Positions 8,614 to 60,713 of a stretch of DNA of 64,000 bases are shown here, piece by piece (the stretch's first letter is position 1; each line of letters starts with the position of its first letter). A model generated the notes under the pieces. That model worked only from the letters and a program-made list of their open reading frames with translations, made no database searches and had not been told where the DNA came from. A program made the translations under genes and the position numbers. The DNA is from Rhodospirillaceae bacterium (lineage in GTDB: Bacteria > Pseudomonadota > Alphaproteobacteria > SP197). The DNA lies in NCBI GenBank assembly GCA_002722885.1, contig PBNE01000002.1, positions 124,001 through 188,000 of the forward strand, in the 5' to 3' direction.

Positions 8614-9516
8614 TCAAGTCTGAGCGTCTGAGACCTCCAACATCCAGTCGCGGAACGCAGCAGCGGCCGAGCTCAGCCTTTTGGCCACTGGAACCAGAAG
8701 ATAGTAGTGCTGCCCGCCCCTGACGGTCGGCAGGCCCCGGCAGGGAAGCAGTCCGAGGCTCTCCACCAGTCCGTCGCTGGCCGGCGCACGGGCCAGGGCG
8801 AGGCCGTTGCCCGCCGCAGCCATCATCAGTGCGGTCGGCGTGTTGTCGACCGTGACGATCTCGACGTCCTCGACCTCGCTGGCCTCCGGCGTGTTGAGAA
8901 TCTGATGCCAGCCGTTCTGATGTGGCACGACGTCATAGAGGCGCGCGCCCCTGAGATCGGCAGGTGACCGGATCGCAGCAGCGATGTCGGTTCGCGCGAC
9001 GACGCTGATGTCCTCACCGAACAGACGGATCGCGCTGTCGGGAAAGTCCGAGGCGGAACCGAAGGCGACCTGGATATCGGGTTCACGTCCAGCGGACAGC
9101 GTATGGAAATCCGCAGGAATGTTGGCAGTCAGGACATGGGCACGAATGCCGGGATGGCGGGCCTCGAACAGGGGCAGATGGCGCGGCAGCCAGCCCATGG
9201 CCATGAGATGCACCACCTGGACCGTGACATGCTCGTCCTGCTCGGATCGAAACAGCGCCATCGCCGTTGTTTCCATCGCCGCAAGGCTCTGGTTGACCAC
9301 CGGCAGGAACGCCTGGCCCTCGCGGGTTAGCGCGACATGGCTGGGGCCACGCACAAACAGCGGCTTGCCGAGGGATTCTTCAAGCGACCGGATCTGCTGG
9401 CTGACAGCGGGCCCGCTCATGTTCAGGATCTCGGCGGCGCGGGCAAAGCTCTCCTTGCGCGCGGCTGCCTCGAACACACGCAGCCAGTTCAGCGAGGGAA
9501 TCAGTCTCTGGGCCAT
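8614..9516 (-). CDS. LysR-family transcriptional regulator (GcvA-like)
   Basis: The 300-residue protein starts MAQRLIPSLNWLRVFEAAAR and has an N-terminal winged helix-turn-helix ('ARAAEILNMSGPAVSQQIRS') followed by a LysR substrate-binding domain. The sequence style is of the GcvA group. It is divergent from the sterol-desaturase-like gene at 9646, and a perfect inverted repeat sits just upstream of its start, the usual layout for a LysR regulator controlling itself and the divergent neighbour. Its effector is unknown. Confidence 0.92.
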   Translation of the reverse strand: MAQRLIPSLNWLRVFEAAARKESFARAAEILNMSGPAVSQQIRSLEESLGKPLFVRGPSHVALTREGQAFLPVVNQSLAAMETTAMALFRSEQDEHVTVQVVHLMAMGWLPRHLPLFEARHPGIRAHVLTANIPADFHTLSAGREPDIQVAFGSASDFPDSAIRLFGEDISVVARTDIAAAIRSPADLRGARLYDVVPHQNGWHQILNTPEASEVEDVEIVTVDNTPTALMMAAAGNGLALARAPASDGLVESLGLLPCRGLPTVRGGQHYYLLVPVAKRLSSAAAAFRDWMLEVSDAQT

Positions 9517-9522
9517 ACCAAG

Positions 9523-9543
9523 AGGATAAGTTCATCTTATCCT
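9523..9543. promoter_or_regulatory. Inverted repeat upstream of lysR-type gene; likely LysR operator
   Basis: AGGATAAG (9523-9530), spacer TTCAT, CTTATCCT (9536-9543): an exact 8-bp inverted repeat with a 5-bp centre, starting 7 bp upstream of the LysR start codon. A further GATAAG occurs at 9587-9592 in the same 129-bp divergent gap, which could be a second half-site. LysR regulators commonly bind interrupted dyads of this kind between themselves and the divergent target. Assignment rests on position and symmetry only. Confidence 0.45.
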
Positions 9544-9645
9544 ACGGCGCAAATTTTTGAGTTTCCACAGCGCGGTCCAGCACTGCGATAAGACACTCGA
9601 ACGATAGGATGGCGCCCAACGCGCCGAGACTGGAGCCCGTGCACC

Positions 9646-10653
9646 ATGACCGATACCACGTCGTCTCCCCCGTCCAACACGTCGTCCGCCAAGGGAACCT
9701 GGAACTGGCATCCCGAGCTTCCGGTGACTGGCGTGCCCTATTGGGCATGGCCGATGCGGCCGCTCACGGTGCTCAAGTGGCTGTTTTCCAACTTCCTGCA
9801 GTTCACGGATCGCGCCGCCTATCTTGTCTTTGCCCTTGTGCTGGCATTCTGGCTGCATCCTGTGACCCCGGAACAGGCCAGCCTGTCGTTCGACTGGACC
9901 GGCTGGATCCTGCTACGCAACGCGATTGCCCTGCTCGTGGTCGCCGGCGGGCTCCACATGTGGTTCTACGGTTTCAACGCTCAGGGCGACACGCTGAAGT
10001 ACGACGTCCGCCCGATGCCCCGGGAAAAACACGACAAGTACACCTTCGGCTACCAGACCTGGGACAACATGTTCTACTCGCTGGCCTCCGGCCTGCCGAT
10101 CGCGACGGCCTGGGAAATTCTGGCGCGGGTCATGTACGCACGCGGTGTGTTCGTGGAGATCGAACCGGCGACAAGCCCGGTGTGGTTCGTGCTGATGTTC
10201 CCACTGGTCACGATGTGGCAGAGCCTGCACTTCTATGTCGTGCACCGCGCGCTCCACTGGACGCCACTCTACAAACACATCCATGCCCTGCACCACCGCA
10301 ACATAAATCCCGGTCCGTGGTCCGGAATCTCGATGCATCCCGTGGAGCATGTCCTCTACTTCAGCACGATCCTGATTTTCTTTGTCCTGCCCAGCCATCC
10401 CGCACACATGCTTTTCGTGCTGTTCTGGCAGCTTCTCGGAGCGCCGTCCGGGCATTCCGGCTACGAGGCTGTCTGGGCCAAGAACAAGGCACGTCTTGGT
10501 GTCGGCGGCTTCTTCCACCAGCTCCACCACCGCTACTTCGACTGCAACTACGGCAGTGAGGAGTTCCCTCTCGACCGCTGGCTCGGAACCTTCCACGACG
10601 GGACCAGGGAGGCCACCGCCAGAATGCGGCGGCGCCAGAAGCCCGCGCCCTGA
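9646..10653 (+). CDS. Sterol desaturase / fatty acid hydroxylase superfamily membrane protein
   Basis: The 335-residue integral membrane protein has several hydrophobic helices and the histidine clusters of the di-iron family: 'HFYVVHRALHWTPLYKHIHA' followed by LHHR, and near the C-terminus 'GFFHQLHHRYFDCNYG'. These enzymes insert oxygen or a double bond into lipids such as sterols, carotenoids and fatty acids. Here the target may be a membrane lipid or hopanoid; the exact substrate is unknown. It is divergent from, and probably regulated by, the LysR-type gene. A GGAG element lies upstream of the ATG. Confidence 0.88.
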   Translation: MTDTTSSPPSNTSSAKGTWNWHPELPVTGVPYWAWPMRPLTVLKWLFSNFLQFTDRAAYLVFALVLAFWLHPVTPEQASLSFDWTGWILLRNAIALLVVAGGLHMWFYGFNAQGDTLKYDVRPMPREKHDKYTFGYQTWDNMFYSLASGLPIATAWEILARVMYARGVFVEIEPATSPVWFVLMFPLVTMWQSLHFYVVHRALHWTPLYKHIHALHHRNINPGPWSGISMHPVEHVLYFSTILIFFVLPSHPAHMLFVLFWQLLGAPSGHSGYEAVWAKNKARLGVGGFFHQLHHRYFDCNYGSEEFPLDRWLGTFHDGTREATARMRRRQKPAP

Positions 10654-48951: not shown

Positions 48952-51321
48952 CTACGAGCGCGGACGTTCCTTCTTCGGATCGTAGAACGGGAACGGCGCC
49001 ACGGTGGCCGGGATGCGTTTAATGTGGCCGTCGACCTTGCCAACCTCGACCTCGGTGCCGATCTCGGCATGGGTCACATCCATGCGGCAGAGCGCGATGT
49101 TCTTCTTGAGGATCGGCGAGATCATGCCCGAGGTGACGATGCCGACCTGTGCACGGCCGATGCGGACGCAATCTCCGTGGACCGCGGGTTCGCCACCTTC
49201 AAGCTCCAGGCCCACCAGCTTCTTCTGCGGATTGGCCTTGCGCCGTTCGAGCGCGGCACGGCCAACGAAGTCTTCATCGGTCGACTTCAGCGCAACCGAA
49301 AAGCCGATTCCCGCTTCGTAGGGATCGGTCTGATCATCGAACTCGTGGCCGGCGAAGATCAGCCCGGACTCGATCCGAAGCATGTCGAGCGCGTCGAGGC
49401 CGAGTGGCGTGATGCCATACTCTTCACCCGCTTCGAACACCGCATCCCAGACCTCGGCGGCATGACGCGGATGGCACCAGACCTCATAGCCCAGCTCGCC
49501 GGTGTAACCGGTGCGGGAGACCACGAGCGGGATGCCGTTGTGATCCCCGATGCGGCCGATGGTCGAGCGGAACCAGCCGATCTCGTCGACGGCCGGGCGT
49601 GCCGGTGCGGTCCAGACAAACTTCTTGAGCACGTCGCGGCTCTTCGGCCCCTGGACCGAGATGTTGTGGAGCTGATCGGTCGAGTTGCGCACGTTGCAGT
49701 ACATGCCCCATTCCCGGGCCTTCTCGCGCAGCCACTCGCCACCGTAGTCGGAGCCGCCGATCCAGCGATAACCGGTCTCGCTGAGACGGAACAGGGTGCC
49801 ATCGTCGATCATGCCGCCGTGCTCGTAGCACATGGCGGAGTAGACGACCTCGAGATCAGTCAGGCGACGGACGTTCCGGGTCAGGGCGCGCTGCATCAGA
49901 TCAGTCGAATCTGGTCCCGTAATCTCGACCTTGCGCAGCGCCGAGAGGTCCATCGCGATCACGCCCTCACGGCAGGCCCAGTATTCGTCGATCGCGCCGT
50001 GCCTGGTGAAGTTCGCGGGCAACCAGTAGCCGTTGTATTCGGTGAAGTTGCGGGTCAGTTCGGAGGTCCGGGGGTAAAACCCGGTTTCCTTGGTGGGCAG
50101 GGGATCGGAATCGGGCATGGCTCTGAACGCAATCGATTTCTTAAAGACATTGTCGGCGGGATAGACGCGGACCAAAATGTCGGTCGGGTTCCAACCGTTG
50201 GCCGGATCGAGCGCGTCTGCACAAGCGGAGTTGATGCACACCATGTCCTGCATCGCGCGGCTGAGAACATAGTCACCCGGACGCGACCACGGCTCTTCCA
50301 GATAGATCTGGTTATGGTCGTCGGTCTGCGTGTTGTAGAAGTAGTTCATCGCCCGCCAACCGGCCCGCGGCTTCACGCCCCAGGCGGCCAGCTCGGCGTT
50401 GAAGTTGTCCGTGCAGTTAGGATGACCGGGATAGCCGACCTCGTCGTAGTAGCGTGAGGTGCAGGCGTAGTTGAACGTGTCGTGGCGGCCTACCGTGTCC
50501 TGGACGAACTCGATCGAGGGCTGGAGTTCGTTGTCGAACAGCTTCGAGACTAGGCCGGGCTGGGTGTAGAGCGTGCCGGTCAGCGTGCGGGTTGCGGTGG
50601 GATCGAGATCGCGCTCGATGCCTTGATCAAGTCCCTTGAGACCGATGGCCTGAAAGTCCGAACACTCGCGACCCGACACATCCATGACCTGGATGAATTC
50701 ACCGTCGTAGACTTCATAGGCATGGGCCGTTCCGGGTGTGATCCGGAACTCGTGGCGTGGTTCGGCCAGCGGTTCGGGGATCGAGTTTTCCGCTGCGACC
50801 TCGGGGTCGATGCGGGTGATGAAAAGTTCGAGCGGCGTGGTCGTGTTCTGCTCGGAGACCTCCATGTCGGGGCCAGGTGCAGCTACCACCACGACGCCGT
50901 CCTGCTCAACGGTGAAGCGGGTTTCCTCGAGGGCGGGCGTGGCGGGATTGAAACGGCTGACTGAACGCTCAAACTGCGCCGGCAGGTCCTTGGCTTTCAG
51001 CGCCGACATCAGGGCTTCGGCATTGTCACCGCCCTGCGCCAGGGTGACCCGCAGACCTTCAGCCGGTCCGTCGCTGGTCTGGCCCAGGATGCCGGGTTCG
51101 GCCGTGCCATCGACGGTCATCGCCACGACTTCACAGACCTGGCCGCCTTCGCTGTTGACGATCCGGATCGTGTCGCCGGCGAACACCTTGACCACGACGG
51201 AGCCGCCACCGGCGACCCGGTAGCGTTCGACGCCCGGCGGCAGCATGCGGAACCCAGGATACAGCACCCGGGGACGGCCGCGGACCGGTTCGTTGAGCGG
51301 CTGTTGTTCGATCGATGCCAT
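48952..51321 (-). CDS. Fusion of DUF1989 (urea-carboxylase-associated) domain(s) and GcvT-type aminomethyltransferase
   Basis: The 789-residue protein starts MASIEQQPLNEPVRGRPRVL (GGGAGGG ribosome-binding site). The first 400 residues contain DUF1989 signatures, apparently twice: 'VVKVFAGDTIRIVNSEGGQV' and 'TPGTAHAYEVYDGEFIQVMD' followed by VSGRECSDFQA. Residues about 425-785 form a GcvT/DmdA/sarcosine-oxidase-like folate domain: 'DLMQRALTRNVRRLTDLEVV', 'SRTGYTGELGYEVWCHPRHA' and 'ALDMLRIESGLIFAGHEFDD'. GcvT proteins move a one-carbon unit from a donor to tetrahydrofolate. The donor here is unknown; methylamine-like compounds, glycine derivatives and DMSP are possibilities. The domain order is clear; the reaction is inference. 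Confidence 0.85.
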   Translation of the reverse strand: MASIEQQPLNEPVRGRPRVLYPGFRMLPPGVERYRVAGGGSVVVKVFAGDTIRIVNSEGGQVCEVVAMTVDGTAEPGILGQTSDGPAEGLRVTLAQGGDNAEALMSALKAKDLPAQFERSVSRFNPATPALEETRFTVEQDGVVVVAAPGPDMEVSEQNTTTPLELFITRIDPEVAAENSIPEPLAEPRHEFRITPGTAHAYEVYDGEFIQVMDVSGRECSDFQAIGLKGLDQGIERDLDPTATRTLTGTLYTQPGLVSKLFDNELQPSIEFVQDTVGRHDTFNYACTSRYYDEVGYPGHPNCTDNFNAELAAWGVKPRAGWRAMNYFYNTQTDDHNQIYLEEPWSRPGDYVLSRAMQDMVCINSACADALDPANGWNPTDILVRVYPADNVFKKSIAFRAMPDSDPLPTKETGFYPRTSELTRNFTEYNGYWLPANFTRHGAIDEYWACREGVIAMDLSALRKVEITGPDSTDLMQRALTRNVRRLTDLEVVYSAMCYEHGGMIDDGTLFRLSETGYRWIGGSDYGGEWLREKAREWGMYCNVRNSTDQLHNISVQGPKSRDVLKKFVWTAPARPAVDEIGWFRSTIGRIGDHNGIPLVVSRTGYTGELGYEVWCHPRHAAEVWDAVFEAGEEYGITPLGLDALDMLRIESGLIFAGHEFDDQTDPYEAGIGFSVALKSTDEDFVGRAALERRKANPQKKLVGLELEGGEPAVHGDCVRIGRAQVGIVTSGMISPILKKNIALCRMDVTHAEIGTEVEVGKVDGHIKRIPATVAPFPFYDPKKERPRS

Positions 51322-51749
51322 GGCACCCTCCCGACCTTCGTGCCGGACCTTAATGAACAATCCGGGGAGCACGCAACAGACCCAAGCGCGCCCTGATGAG
51401 CAGAACTAATCGTTCCCTACCTATACTAGCTTGCCTGAATCGGACGGATGCACCAGCTTGCTTTTCAGAAAGTGCCGATTTGATCCTCAGCTTGCGGGCG
51501 CTCTAAAAATACGGCTAAAGCGGTGGGCGGGCTGCCAATCACAATGATCGGGCGGCTTTTTTGTGTCCTGCGATCAGGCCGAACATCCCGCAGGCAGAGC
51601 CGGACCGGCGCTCCGAATGAAACGGAGCACCATGATGCCCAAGGCCCACATTCGCCGGACCTCCCAAAACTTGTCTTATGACGGGCAACGATTGCCATGG
51701 ATGACACCACGTGCGGACCTGCGCTGCACCATGAGCGGGAGGTCCTGAC
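51322..51749. other. 428-bp stretch without a recognisable gene
   Basis: This is the gap between the divergent DUF1989-GcvT and cysG-like genes. Short open frames on both strands have no recognisable domain. The 51410-51500 part is locally less GC-rich, for example 'CCTATACTAGCTTGCCTG' and 'CTCTAAAAATACGGC', and may hold promoters for both directions. No tRNA, terminator or repeat is evident. It could be a fully eroded gene. Confidence 0.4.
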
Positions 51750-52310: not shown

Positions 52311-53061
52311 ACGACTGGCAACGGCGGCGCACCGCCGGGCCCGGGCGGTGGAGCTGGGCTGTGCCTACAGCCATCTCGATGGTGTCGACCTTCTCGAGGT
52401 GATGATCCGGGAGGCGTTTCCGGGTGATCTGGCAATTGCGTCATCCTTCGGCGCCGAAGCTGTCGCCCTGCTTGCCCTGGCGGCCGACATCGACCCAACC
52501 GTTCCCGTGATCTTTCTCGACACCGGGAAGTTTTATCCGAAGACCGTGGCGTACCGCGATGAGGTTGTTGCGCATCTGGGCCTCACCCGCATGTGAATCG
52601 CGAAGCCGGATATCCTGGATGTTGCCGGGGTCGATACCTCGGGCGATCTGTGGAATCGCCATGCCGATGCCTGCTGTTACCTGCGCAAGGTTGTGCCCCT
52701 GGTTCAGGCGGTGACGCCTTATGGTGCGTGGGTCACGGGCCGCAAGCGTCACCAAGGCGACAGCCGGGAGGCGCTGCAACCGATCAAAGCGTCGGACGGC
52801 TGGGTCAAGATCAATCCGTTGGCCCGTTGGACGAAACAGGATGTCTTCCGCTTCATCGCGCAACGCGGACTGCCAAAGCATCCGCTGTTGGAACAGGGTT
52901 ACCTCTCGATCGGCTGTCAGCCGTGCACGCGGCCGGTCAGCCCGGGGGAGTATGAGCGGGACGGGCGCTGGGCCGGACTGACCAAGGCAGAGTGCCGCAT
53001 CCATGCGTTCGAGACACCCCCGGCCGAGCCATCAGCCGCCTCCGCGGCCGTGCCTGACTGA
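52298..53061 (+). pseudogene. cysH: APS/PAPS reductase (CysH) with one frameshift and one in-frame TGA
   Basis: An ATG at 52298 gives MADVNDWQRRRTA, then the family sequence resumes in another frame as RARAVELGCAYSHLDGVDLL (one G missing in the GC-rich run near 52335-52345). The body has 'AIASSFGAEAVALLALAADI' (PP-loop-like) and 'IFLDTGKFYPKTVAYRDE'. TGA at 52594-52596 interrupts 'GLTRM' / 'IAKPDILDVAG' (probably CGA Arg). The rest is clear: 'DACCYLRKVVPL', 'SIGCQPCTRPVSPGEYERDG' and 'AECRIH', with CC and CxxC pairs of the [4Fe-4S] APS reductase type. Two lesions make loss of function likely. No cysI follows. Confidence 0.85.
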
Positions 53062-59261: not shown

Positions 59262-60713
59262 TCACGACGGATAGATCTCGGCCCGGAGCCGTTCGGCCAG
59301 ATCACCGATGGCCGGTCCAAAAGGCTGGCGTCCCGCGAGATCGGGCAGAACCTCCCTGATCATTGCTGCGAGACTTTCGAGCGGCGTAGGCACGGGCCGC
59401 TTCGTCACATCCAGAGCACGCAACGCGATCGGCGCCAGACTGGCTAACGCCATGTCAAGACAATGGCCCGCCCGCTCCTGTTTGGACCAGGCCAAAAAGA
59501 CGGGACTGGCAACGTCGTTCTGACCGAAGCCACCGGACTCGCTGCCGGGCAGAAGTGTGGCCTGGGCCTGGAGCCGCGCCTCCTCCTCATAACCGGTCTG
59601 GGCCATGGGGATGCAGCCCATGTAGCCGCGACGGAATCCGTCTTCGGCCTCGGGATCGATGAGTTGGTCGGGCAGAAGAGAGACCTTGCCGTCGAGCAGC
59701 TTGGCGCCGTGACGCTCTGCAATGACACAGAGATTGGCATAGGCCGCCGAGAGCGAGTCCATTGCCAGCACAGCGTGAGGATTGTGGTAGCCACCTGTCG
59801 AGACGAACCGACCGTGGGGATGGTCGTCATCGACCGCATCGATCCAGACCGGATTGTCGGTAACAGCTTGAAGGGATTCCTCCGCCACCTCCGATGCCAT
59901 CGATGCGGCGCGGCGTGCCTGACCCAGCATGCGCGGAGCAATGCGATAGCTGACTGGCGCCTGGTAGGGCCGGCGCTCGCCATCGTGACCACCATCGATA
60001 AAAGTGCGCAGGGTGGAGAGCGCCCAACGGTCATGGGGGTTGTTCCAATAGTCCTCCAGCGCCGCATCGACATGACCTAACGGCGCATTGAAACCTTCGA
60101 AGGAGAGCGCCAAGACACGTGCCGCGAGGTCGAGTCTGTTACGGGACGCCAACGCCGCATCACAGACCAGCGCCGTGGCAGAGGGTGATCCGTTGACCAG
60201 ACACATAACGTCCTTTTCCTCGGGTTTGATCCGCTCGACTAGATCGGTGAAGAGGTGACTGAGCGAGAGAATTTCGCCCGCCCCGCCCTGCCCCATGGCG
60301 GGAACCTGCGGCTGCTCGGCATCATCGAGCATGGCCGCGACACCGGCAGCGATCTCAGGCGAGACCGCCGCTTGACCTTCGATGAAGTTGGTCAGGCGGG
60401 CCAATACGATTGCGCGGACAACCCGATCCGGCAGCAGATGGCCCCAGGACGCCGCAGCACCAACCGGCGTCATCTTTGCCCAACCCTTACGCTCTTCGGG
60501 ATTGAGCTTGGTCCTGGCCATCTGACCGGCACCGGTGGTGACCCCGTAGATCGTGATATCAGGATCATGCTCGAGAATACGGACGAGACGATCACGGCCC
60601 GATGCCATGGCCGCCATTGCCTCAGGCGACAGCGCTATCGGTTCACCCTTCCAGGCAACTTCGCAAACAAGATCGAGGGTTAGGTCGGTTCGCGTGGAAA
60701 GAATTCTGGTCAT
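59262..60713 (-). CDS. Aromatic amino-acid lyase (HAL/PAL)-like protein with a non-standard MIO motif
   Basis: The 483-residue protein has HAL-family landmarks: 'DITIYGVTTGAGQMARTKLN' (substrate-loop Tyr) and 'MCLVNGSPSATALVCDAALA' (Asn at the MIO site). In the middle is 'PQVPAMGQGGAGEILSLSHL'. In HAL/PAL the corresponding place is G-x-x-G-A-S-G-D-L, whose Ala-Ser-Gly cyclises to the MIO electrophile. Here it reads G-G-A-G-E, with the Ser missing (Ala145-Gly146, bases 60281-60276). Start at 60713 by fit to family. If MIO cannot form, the enzyme either works differently or is not a lyase. It is convergent with a small membrane gene. No hut genes are adjacent. Confidence 0.82.
   Translation of the reverse strand: MTRILSTRTDLTLDLVCEVAWKGEPIALSPEAMAAMASGRDRLVRILEHDPDITIYGVTTGAGQMARTKLNPEERKGWAKMTPVGAAASWGHLLPDRVVRAIVLARLTNFIEGQAAVSPEIAAGVAAMLDDAEQPQVPAMGQGGAGEILSLSHLFTDLVERIKPEEKDVMCLVNGSPSATALVCDAALASRNRLDLAARVLALSFEGFNAPLGHVDAALEDYWNNPHDRWALSTLRTFIDGGHDGERRPYQAPVSYRIAPRMLGQARRAASMASEVAEESLQAVTDNPVWIDAVDDDHPHGRFVSTGGYHNPHAVLAMDSLSAAYANLCVIAERHGAKLLDGKVSLLPDQLIDPEAEDGFRRGYMGCIPMAQTGYEEEARLQAQATLLPGSESGGFGQNDVASPVFLAWSKQERAGHCLDMALASLAPIALRALDVTKRPVPTPLESLAAMIREVLPDLAGRQPFGPAIGDLAERLRAEIYPS

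Follow-up and report, generated by a model that had tools for sequence, protein, structure and literature searches.

The window analysed here, a stretch of 64,000 nucleotides from an alphaproteobacterial genome, encodes a protein of the histidine ammonia-lyase (HAL) fold whose loop has no serine where the MIO cofactor is normally formed. Could such a protein still be an enzyme and, if so, of what kind? An initial sequence-only reading had proposed an intact frame, a lyase fold with a serine-less loop next to a conserved Asn, and a working protein with different chemistry. The frame is indeed uninterrupted, with 483 codons from an ATG at 59262-60713 on the minus strand. Its product belongs to the superfamily PF00221 (Lyase_aromatic; 206.7 bits against a cut-off of 27.3), but falls far under every curated NCBIfam ammonia-lyase cut-off. 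The features discussed below are as follows.

59262 to 60713, minus strand: putative HAL-fold lyase without MIO triad, 483 amino acids, ATG start (open frame; PF00221 match; AlphaFold2 model with pLDDT 91.6 and pTM 0.92).
60267 to 60293, minus strand: loop GQGGAGEIL (residues 141-149) in the place of the MIO loop; its clade-invariant Gly146-Glu147 lies at 60273-60278 (alignments).
60546 to 60548, minus strand: Tyr56, counterpart of the HAL catalytic Tyr53 (invariant; aligned).
60192 to 60194, minus strand: Asn174, counterpart of HAL Asn195 (invariant; aligned).
59943 to 59963, minus strand: Gln251 to Arg257 (QAPVSYR), counterparts of HAL Gln277 and the carboxylate-binding Arg283 (both ends invariant; aligned).

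When aligned with HutH (GSVGASGDLAPLAH; loop GSVGASGDL), the loop of the window protein, read from 60293 to 60267, is one residue shorter, like that of every clade member, and the column of HutH Ser143 is empty in the window protein, as it is throughout the 20 intact clade members that were aligned. Neither Ala-Ser-Gly nor any X-Ser/Thr/Cys-Gly triad is found in the window loop (GQGGA-GE), and no Ser, Thr or Cys occupies the MIO-forming position in its loop or in nearly all its relatives. In a bacterial PAL, replacement of the serine of the Ala-Ser-Gly triad with alanine abolishes both MIO and activity (PMC3903478); to judge from the alignment, MIO cannot form from the window loop either, as initially argued. 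The neighbouring Asn of that reading is N174. Alignment shows counterparts of HAL Tyr53, Asn195, Gln277 and Arg283, whereas His83, Tyr280 and Glu414 are replaced. The roles and numbers of these HAL residues are those we take to be standard, and they were placed on the window protein by motif.

A search for homologues sharing the loop motif, recommended by the sequence-only reading, revealed a defined clade with an invariant Gly-Glu. A scan of the collection gave relatives in nine genomes. They also occur in 18 of 385 sampled genomes of Alphaproteobacteria (including G034, which carries a broken piece alone), and further ones in rhizobia and on two Rhizobium plasmids. Among the genomes sampled from the phylum, close members turned up in Alphaproteobacteria only, and no description of the clade was found in openly accessible literature. 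The distribution of the clade is patchy: among 248 genomes from one rhizobial family, a search with the R. jaguaris homologue as query found it in just 2. The loop of the relatives reads xx[A/P/S]GE[I/V/T]; a script caught 36 of 38, and the two that it missed are 5'-truncated yet display the same motif. The window loop is thus neither a chance variant nor a sequencing slip. Tyr56, Gly146, Glu147, Asn174, Arg248, Gln251, Arg257 and Asp400 are invariant across 30 aligned members. Since the gene belongs to a deep alphaproteobacterial clade with this invariant Gly-Glu, and pairwise dN/dS ranges from 0.07 to 0.21 (dS exceeding 1 for several of the pairs), it is under purifying selection and not in decay.

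The window genome carries four PF00221 genes: a HutH with the ASG triad, the window gene, a paralogue on contig C6 (41% identical; loop GQGGPGE) and a HutH-like gene on contig C1 (33547-34983; in loci L002 and L040, in the latter at 9011-10525). The loop of the latter product, GSVGA-SDLALC, is one residue short, and this protein is probably also devoid of MIO by its sequence. In genome G086 (L041, 8562-14459; L042, 565-10985), about ten diverged lyase copies are arranged in tandem in two groups beside oligopeptide-type ABC transporter genes, and two of them have a Ser in the loop (GSGE and NSGE). Two broken copies occur elsewhere, namely a 100-residue piece with a stop in G034 and a gene with an internal TGA in G489.

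Structure modelling, also recommended at the outset, gave a confident lyase fold. Its best match in the PDB is ergothionase 6s7j (TM 0.88, E 8e-22), narrowly above MIO enzymes, whereas the clade profile, based on sequence alone, ranks MIO enzymes over 6s7j; a PDB search with the loop fragment added nothing to the full-length searches. Ergothionase is described as MIO-less (PMC13405746), so the chemistry invoked for the window protein is not new in principle. In the alignment, the 6s7j loop (SSIGE-GDITTLSH) has a one-residue deletion followed by an acidic residue, and the deletion recurs in the lyase of ergothioneine clusters encoding thiourocanate hydratase and thiohydantoin desulfurase. The window clade stands apart from ergothionase, HutH and HutH1 with an SH-aLRT of 100, in a tree that is unrooted, has long branches and was built by a quick method. 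Purifying selection, the defined Gly-Glu clade and the confident fold favour the initial idea of a working protein with different chemistry. The window protein very probably functions as an enzyme independent of MIO.

Ammonia-lyases need MIO to expel ammonium, a poor leaving group. A quaternary amine is able to depart without this help, and ergothionase, which releases trimethylamine from ergothioneine, is understood in this way. We favour, with a probability of roughly 0.45, a HAL-fold C-N lyase that works without MIO and eliminates an activated, most likely quaternary amine from a betaine in the manner of ergothionase. In this scheme, whose lyase activity, catalytic residue roles and betaine/trimethylamine substrate class we infer, Arg257 would, by homology, hold the substrate carboxylate and Tyr56 would take the beta proton, while the short loop with Gly146-Glu147 would stand in the place of MIO. 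The amine would depart without help, since it is in itself a good leaving group; a quaternary trimethylammonium, as in ergothionase, is the most likely one. The reaction would yield an alpha,beta-unsaturated acid together with an amine, probably trimethylamine. The substrate is probably not an imidazole compound. Besides the MIO-less loop, the kept active-site residues, the 6s7j fold match and the dN/dS values, this reading is favoured by the genomic context; it is weakened by the closeness of the fold ranking, by the preference of the clade profile for MIO enzymes and by the loss of His83.

The window gene itself is solitary, with tad-pilus-type genes on one side and a gene for a small membrane protein on the other. 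A gene of possible relevance lies at a distance of about 8 kb.

48952 to 51327, minus strand: TMAO demethylase with DUF1989 and GcvT domains (NF053776, 1127.6 bits against a cut-off of 1100; Pfam domains); not in an operon with the lyase, a possible partner by co-occurrence.

A similar spacing, of about 6.5-10 kb, is observed in four genomes, namely the window's, G261 and those of L008 and L014, the linkage in the last two being judged by contig numbers. Genomes or plasmids with the clade mostly carry a TMAO demethylase as well (27 of 33, made up of 13 of 18 in the class sample, 8 of 9 further genomes and 6 of 6 rhizobial genomes or plasmids), whereas few clade-free genomes do (21 of 367). The contrast is inflated by shared ancestry; counted by taxonomic family, co-occurrence holds in 5 of 9 (p about 0.001, for an assumed number of families). 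Outside close relatives, the demethylase is mostly unlinked to the lyase, which, like the shared ancestry, weakens the argument. Trimethylamine monooxygenase occurs in several clade-bearing genomes, often adjoining TMAO demethylase, and supports our reading there. On the other hand, it was not detected in the window genome, its genus or close relatives; this weakens the trimethylamine version, and a chain from the lyase through the monooxygenase to TMAO demethylase is unsupported in the window organism. Near the demethylase gene, a cysH-like frame (52348-53061) has one in-frame stop near 52594, either a real loss or an assembly error. As a whole, the context points to amine or betaine catabolism. 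A bolder version, which we advance tentatively and consider rather doubtful, is that the clade constitutes a new family of MIO-independent betaine lyases. These would release trimethylamine from a betaine other than ergothioneine and so be one more bacterial source of this amine, tied to the demethylation of TMAO in Alphaproteobacteria that are marine or root-associated.

Neighbourhoods of homologues provide both further support and the most serious alternative. The R. jaguaris homologue (L093) is flanked on one side by an OpuAC-type (glycine-betaine/quaternary-amine) ABC transporter and on the other by a divergent gene set that encodes the amidohydrolases ErtD and ErtE as well as UbiD and UbiX, all above NCBIfam cut-offs, together with a LysR-type regulator. 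The transporter and the ErtD/ErtE pair favour betaine elimination. The R. tropici homologue (by similarity) and that of G246, where ErtE is present as well, likewise have UbiD and UbiX as neighbours; directly downstream of the C6 paralogue in the window genome there is UbiD without UbiX. In G684, UbiD of this type comes after a different HAL that lacks the MIO triad (L114, 8292-15195; loop MSVGA-SDI, with ErtD and ErtE near), and two kinds of lyase appear to act in a single pathway. These neighbourhoods suggest a catabolic pathway in which UbiD may decarboxylate an unsaturated acid produced by a MIO-less lyase. The plasmid records of R. tropici and R. jaguaris carry no gene annotation in these regions. 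Genes were therefore predicted by a simple script based on codon usage, which miscalled some high-GC loci (for example, an antisense frame in L043), and the conclusions draw on those neighbours that were compared with curated profiles. The G246 gene region also encodes a HAL-like protein of 598 residues, possibly with a signal peptide, whose loop reads GTLGE-GDL (L056, 2955-4751). In the window genome, no ErtE was found above cut-off; an ErtD-like amidohydrolase gene on the window's contig (G000:C2:6364-7692; L118) scores 541 bits, under the cut-off of 600, and lies by hydantoin-racemase-like and carbamoylase-like genes.

These UbiD and ErtD/ErtE associations, together with the missing monooxygenase in the window genus, could also reflect a MIO-independent lyase that expels a group other than trimethylamine (for instance a ureido, amidine or heterocyclic nitrogen), acting in hydantoin or ureido catabolism with UbiD decarboxylating the acrylate-type product. 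We regard this as possible but unlikely, as it leaves the co-occurrence with TMAO demethylase and the OpuAC-type transporter unexplained and as most clade members, the window gene included, have no UbiD neighbour. A catalytically dead or repurposed scaffold, be it a pseudoenzyme or a decaying gene, would account for the broken copies in G034 and G489 and for the absence of the usual cofactor; the low dN/dS, the invariant active-site Tyr, Asn, Gln and Arg and the tandem paralogues of G086 make it improbable, and a pseudogene was rejected as the main reading. Ergothionase or hercynine lyase proper, producing trimethylamine from ergothioneine or histidine betaine, would fit the fold and loop shared with 6s7j and the ErtD/ErtE genes by the R. 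jaguaris homologue. We consider it more improbable still and rejected it as the main reading because the clade is deep and separate, the counterpart of His83 is gone and the clusters with thiourocanate hydratase and desulfurase (as at L113) carry another lyase; moreover, an Asn stands where ergothionases have Ser, and the window genome offers neither ErtE nor ErtD above cut-off, the ErtD-like gene being sub-threshold. Finally, a normal ammonia-lyase or aminomutase forming MIO from another nearby triad, as the two Ser-containing G086 loops might hint, is hardly credible and was rejected, since the window loop is one residue short and, like nearly all others, has no Ser, Thr or Cys at the position, and the S-to-A change abolishes MIO and activity in a PAL (PMC3903478).

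The clade appears, then, as a further MIO-less branch of a textbook cofactor family: the kind is already known through ergothionase, and this is a new variant of it. Because clade proteins match ammonia-lyase profiles, they are easily given the label of a histidine or aromatic ammonia-lyase, despite being unable to form the cofactor. With the clade in hand, the rule that an activated leaving group makes MIO unneeded becomes testable, and if the substrate is a betaine, bacteria would have an added route to trimethylamine.

Compared with HutH and the MIO-dependent aromatic ammonia-lyases and aminomutases of PF00221, the window protein has the same fold and the common Tyr53, Asn195, Gln277 and Arg283 counterparts, but differs in the missing Ala-Ser-Gly, the replaced His83, Tyr280 and Glu414 and its scores below every NCBIfam cut-off. 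HutH1 of Pseudomonas hut operons, identified by operon position, is a HAL paralogue without the triad (GSVGYLTH) that adjoins a normal HutH and is reported to be dispensable for growth on histidine. Unlike the window protein, it keeps His83 and Glu414, its loop is three residues shorter than that of HutH and has no acidic residue, and it forms a separate clade. This second MIO-less family (loop GSVGYLTHMAH) is seen in hut operons by HutH at L091 (9169-10692), L092 (8612-10120) and L063-L076.

The closest parallel is ergothionase (ergothioneine trimethylamine-lyase of Treponema denticola, 6s7j/6s7q) with the ErtA-type lyases, which share with the clade a HAL fold without MIO triad, a loop shortened by one residue and followed by an acidic residue, and the active-site Tyr, Gln and Arg. 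On the other hand, ergothionase and the window protein are only about 20% identical, and ergothionase and the ErtA-type lyases fall on the other side of the tree. They keep His83 and have Ser for Asn195, whereas the window protein has Ala and Asn at these positions. Thiourocanate hydratase and thiohydantoin desulfurase, with which ergothionase clusters, were found neither in the window nor among the genes called beside the inspected homologues. Since fold and loop match while tree position and active-site residues differ, the window clade would act like ergothionase but be a different enzyme.
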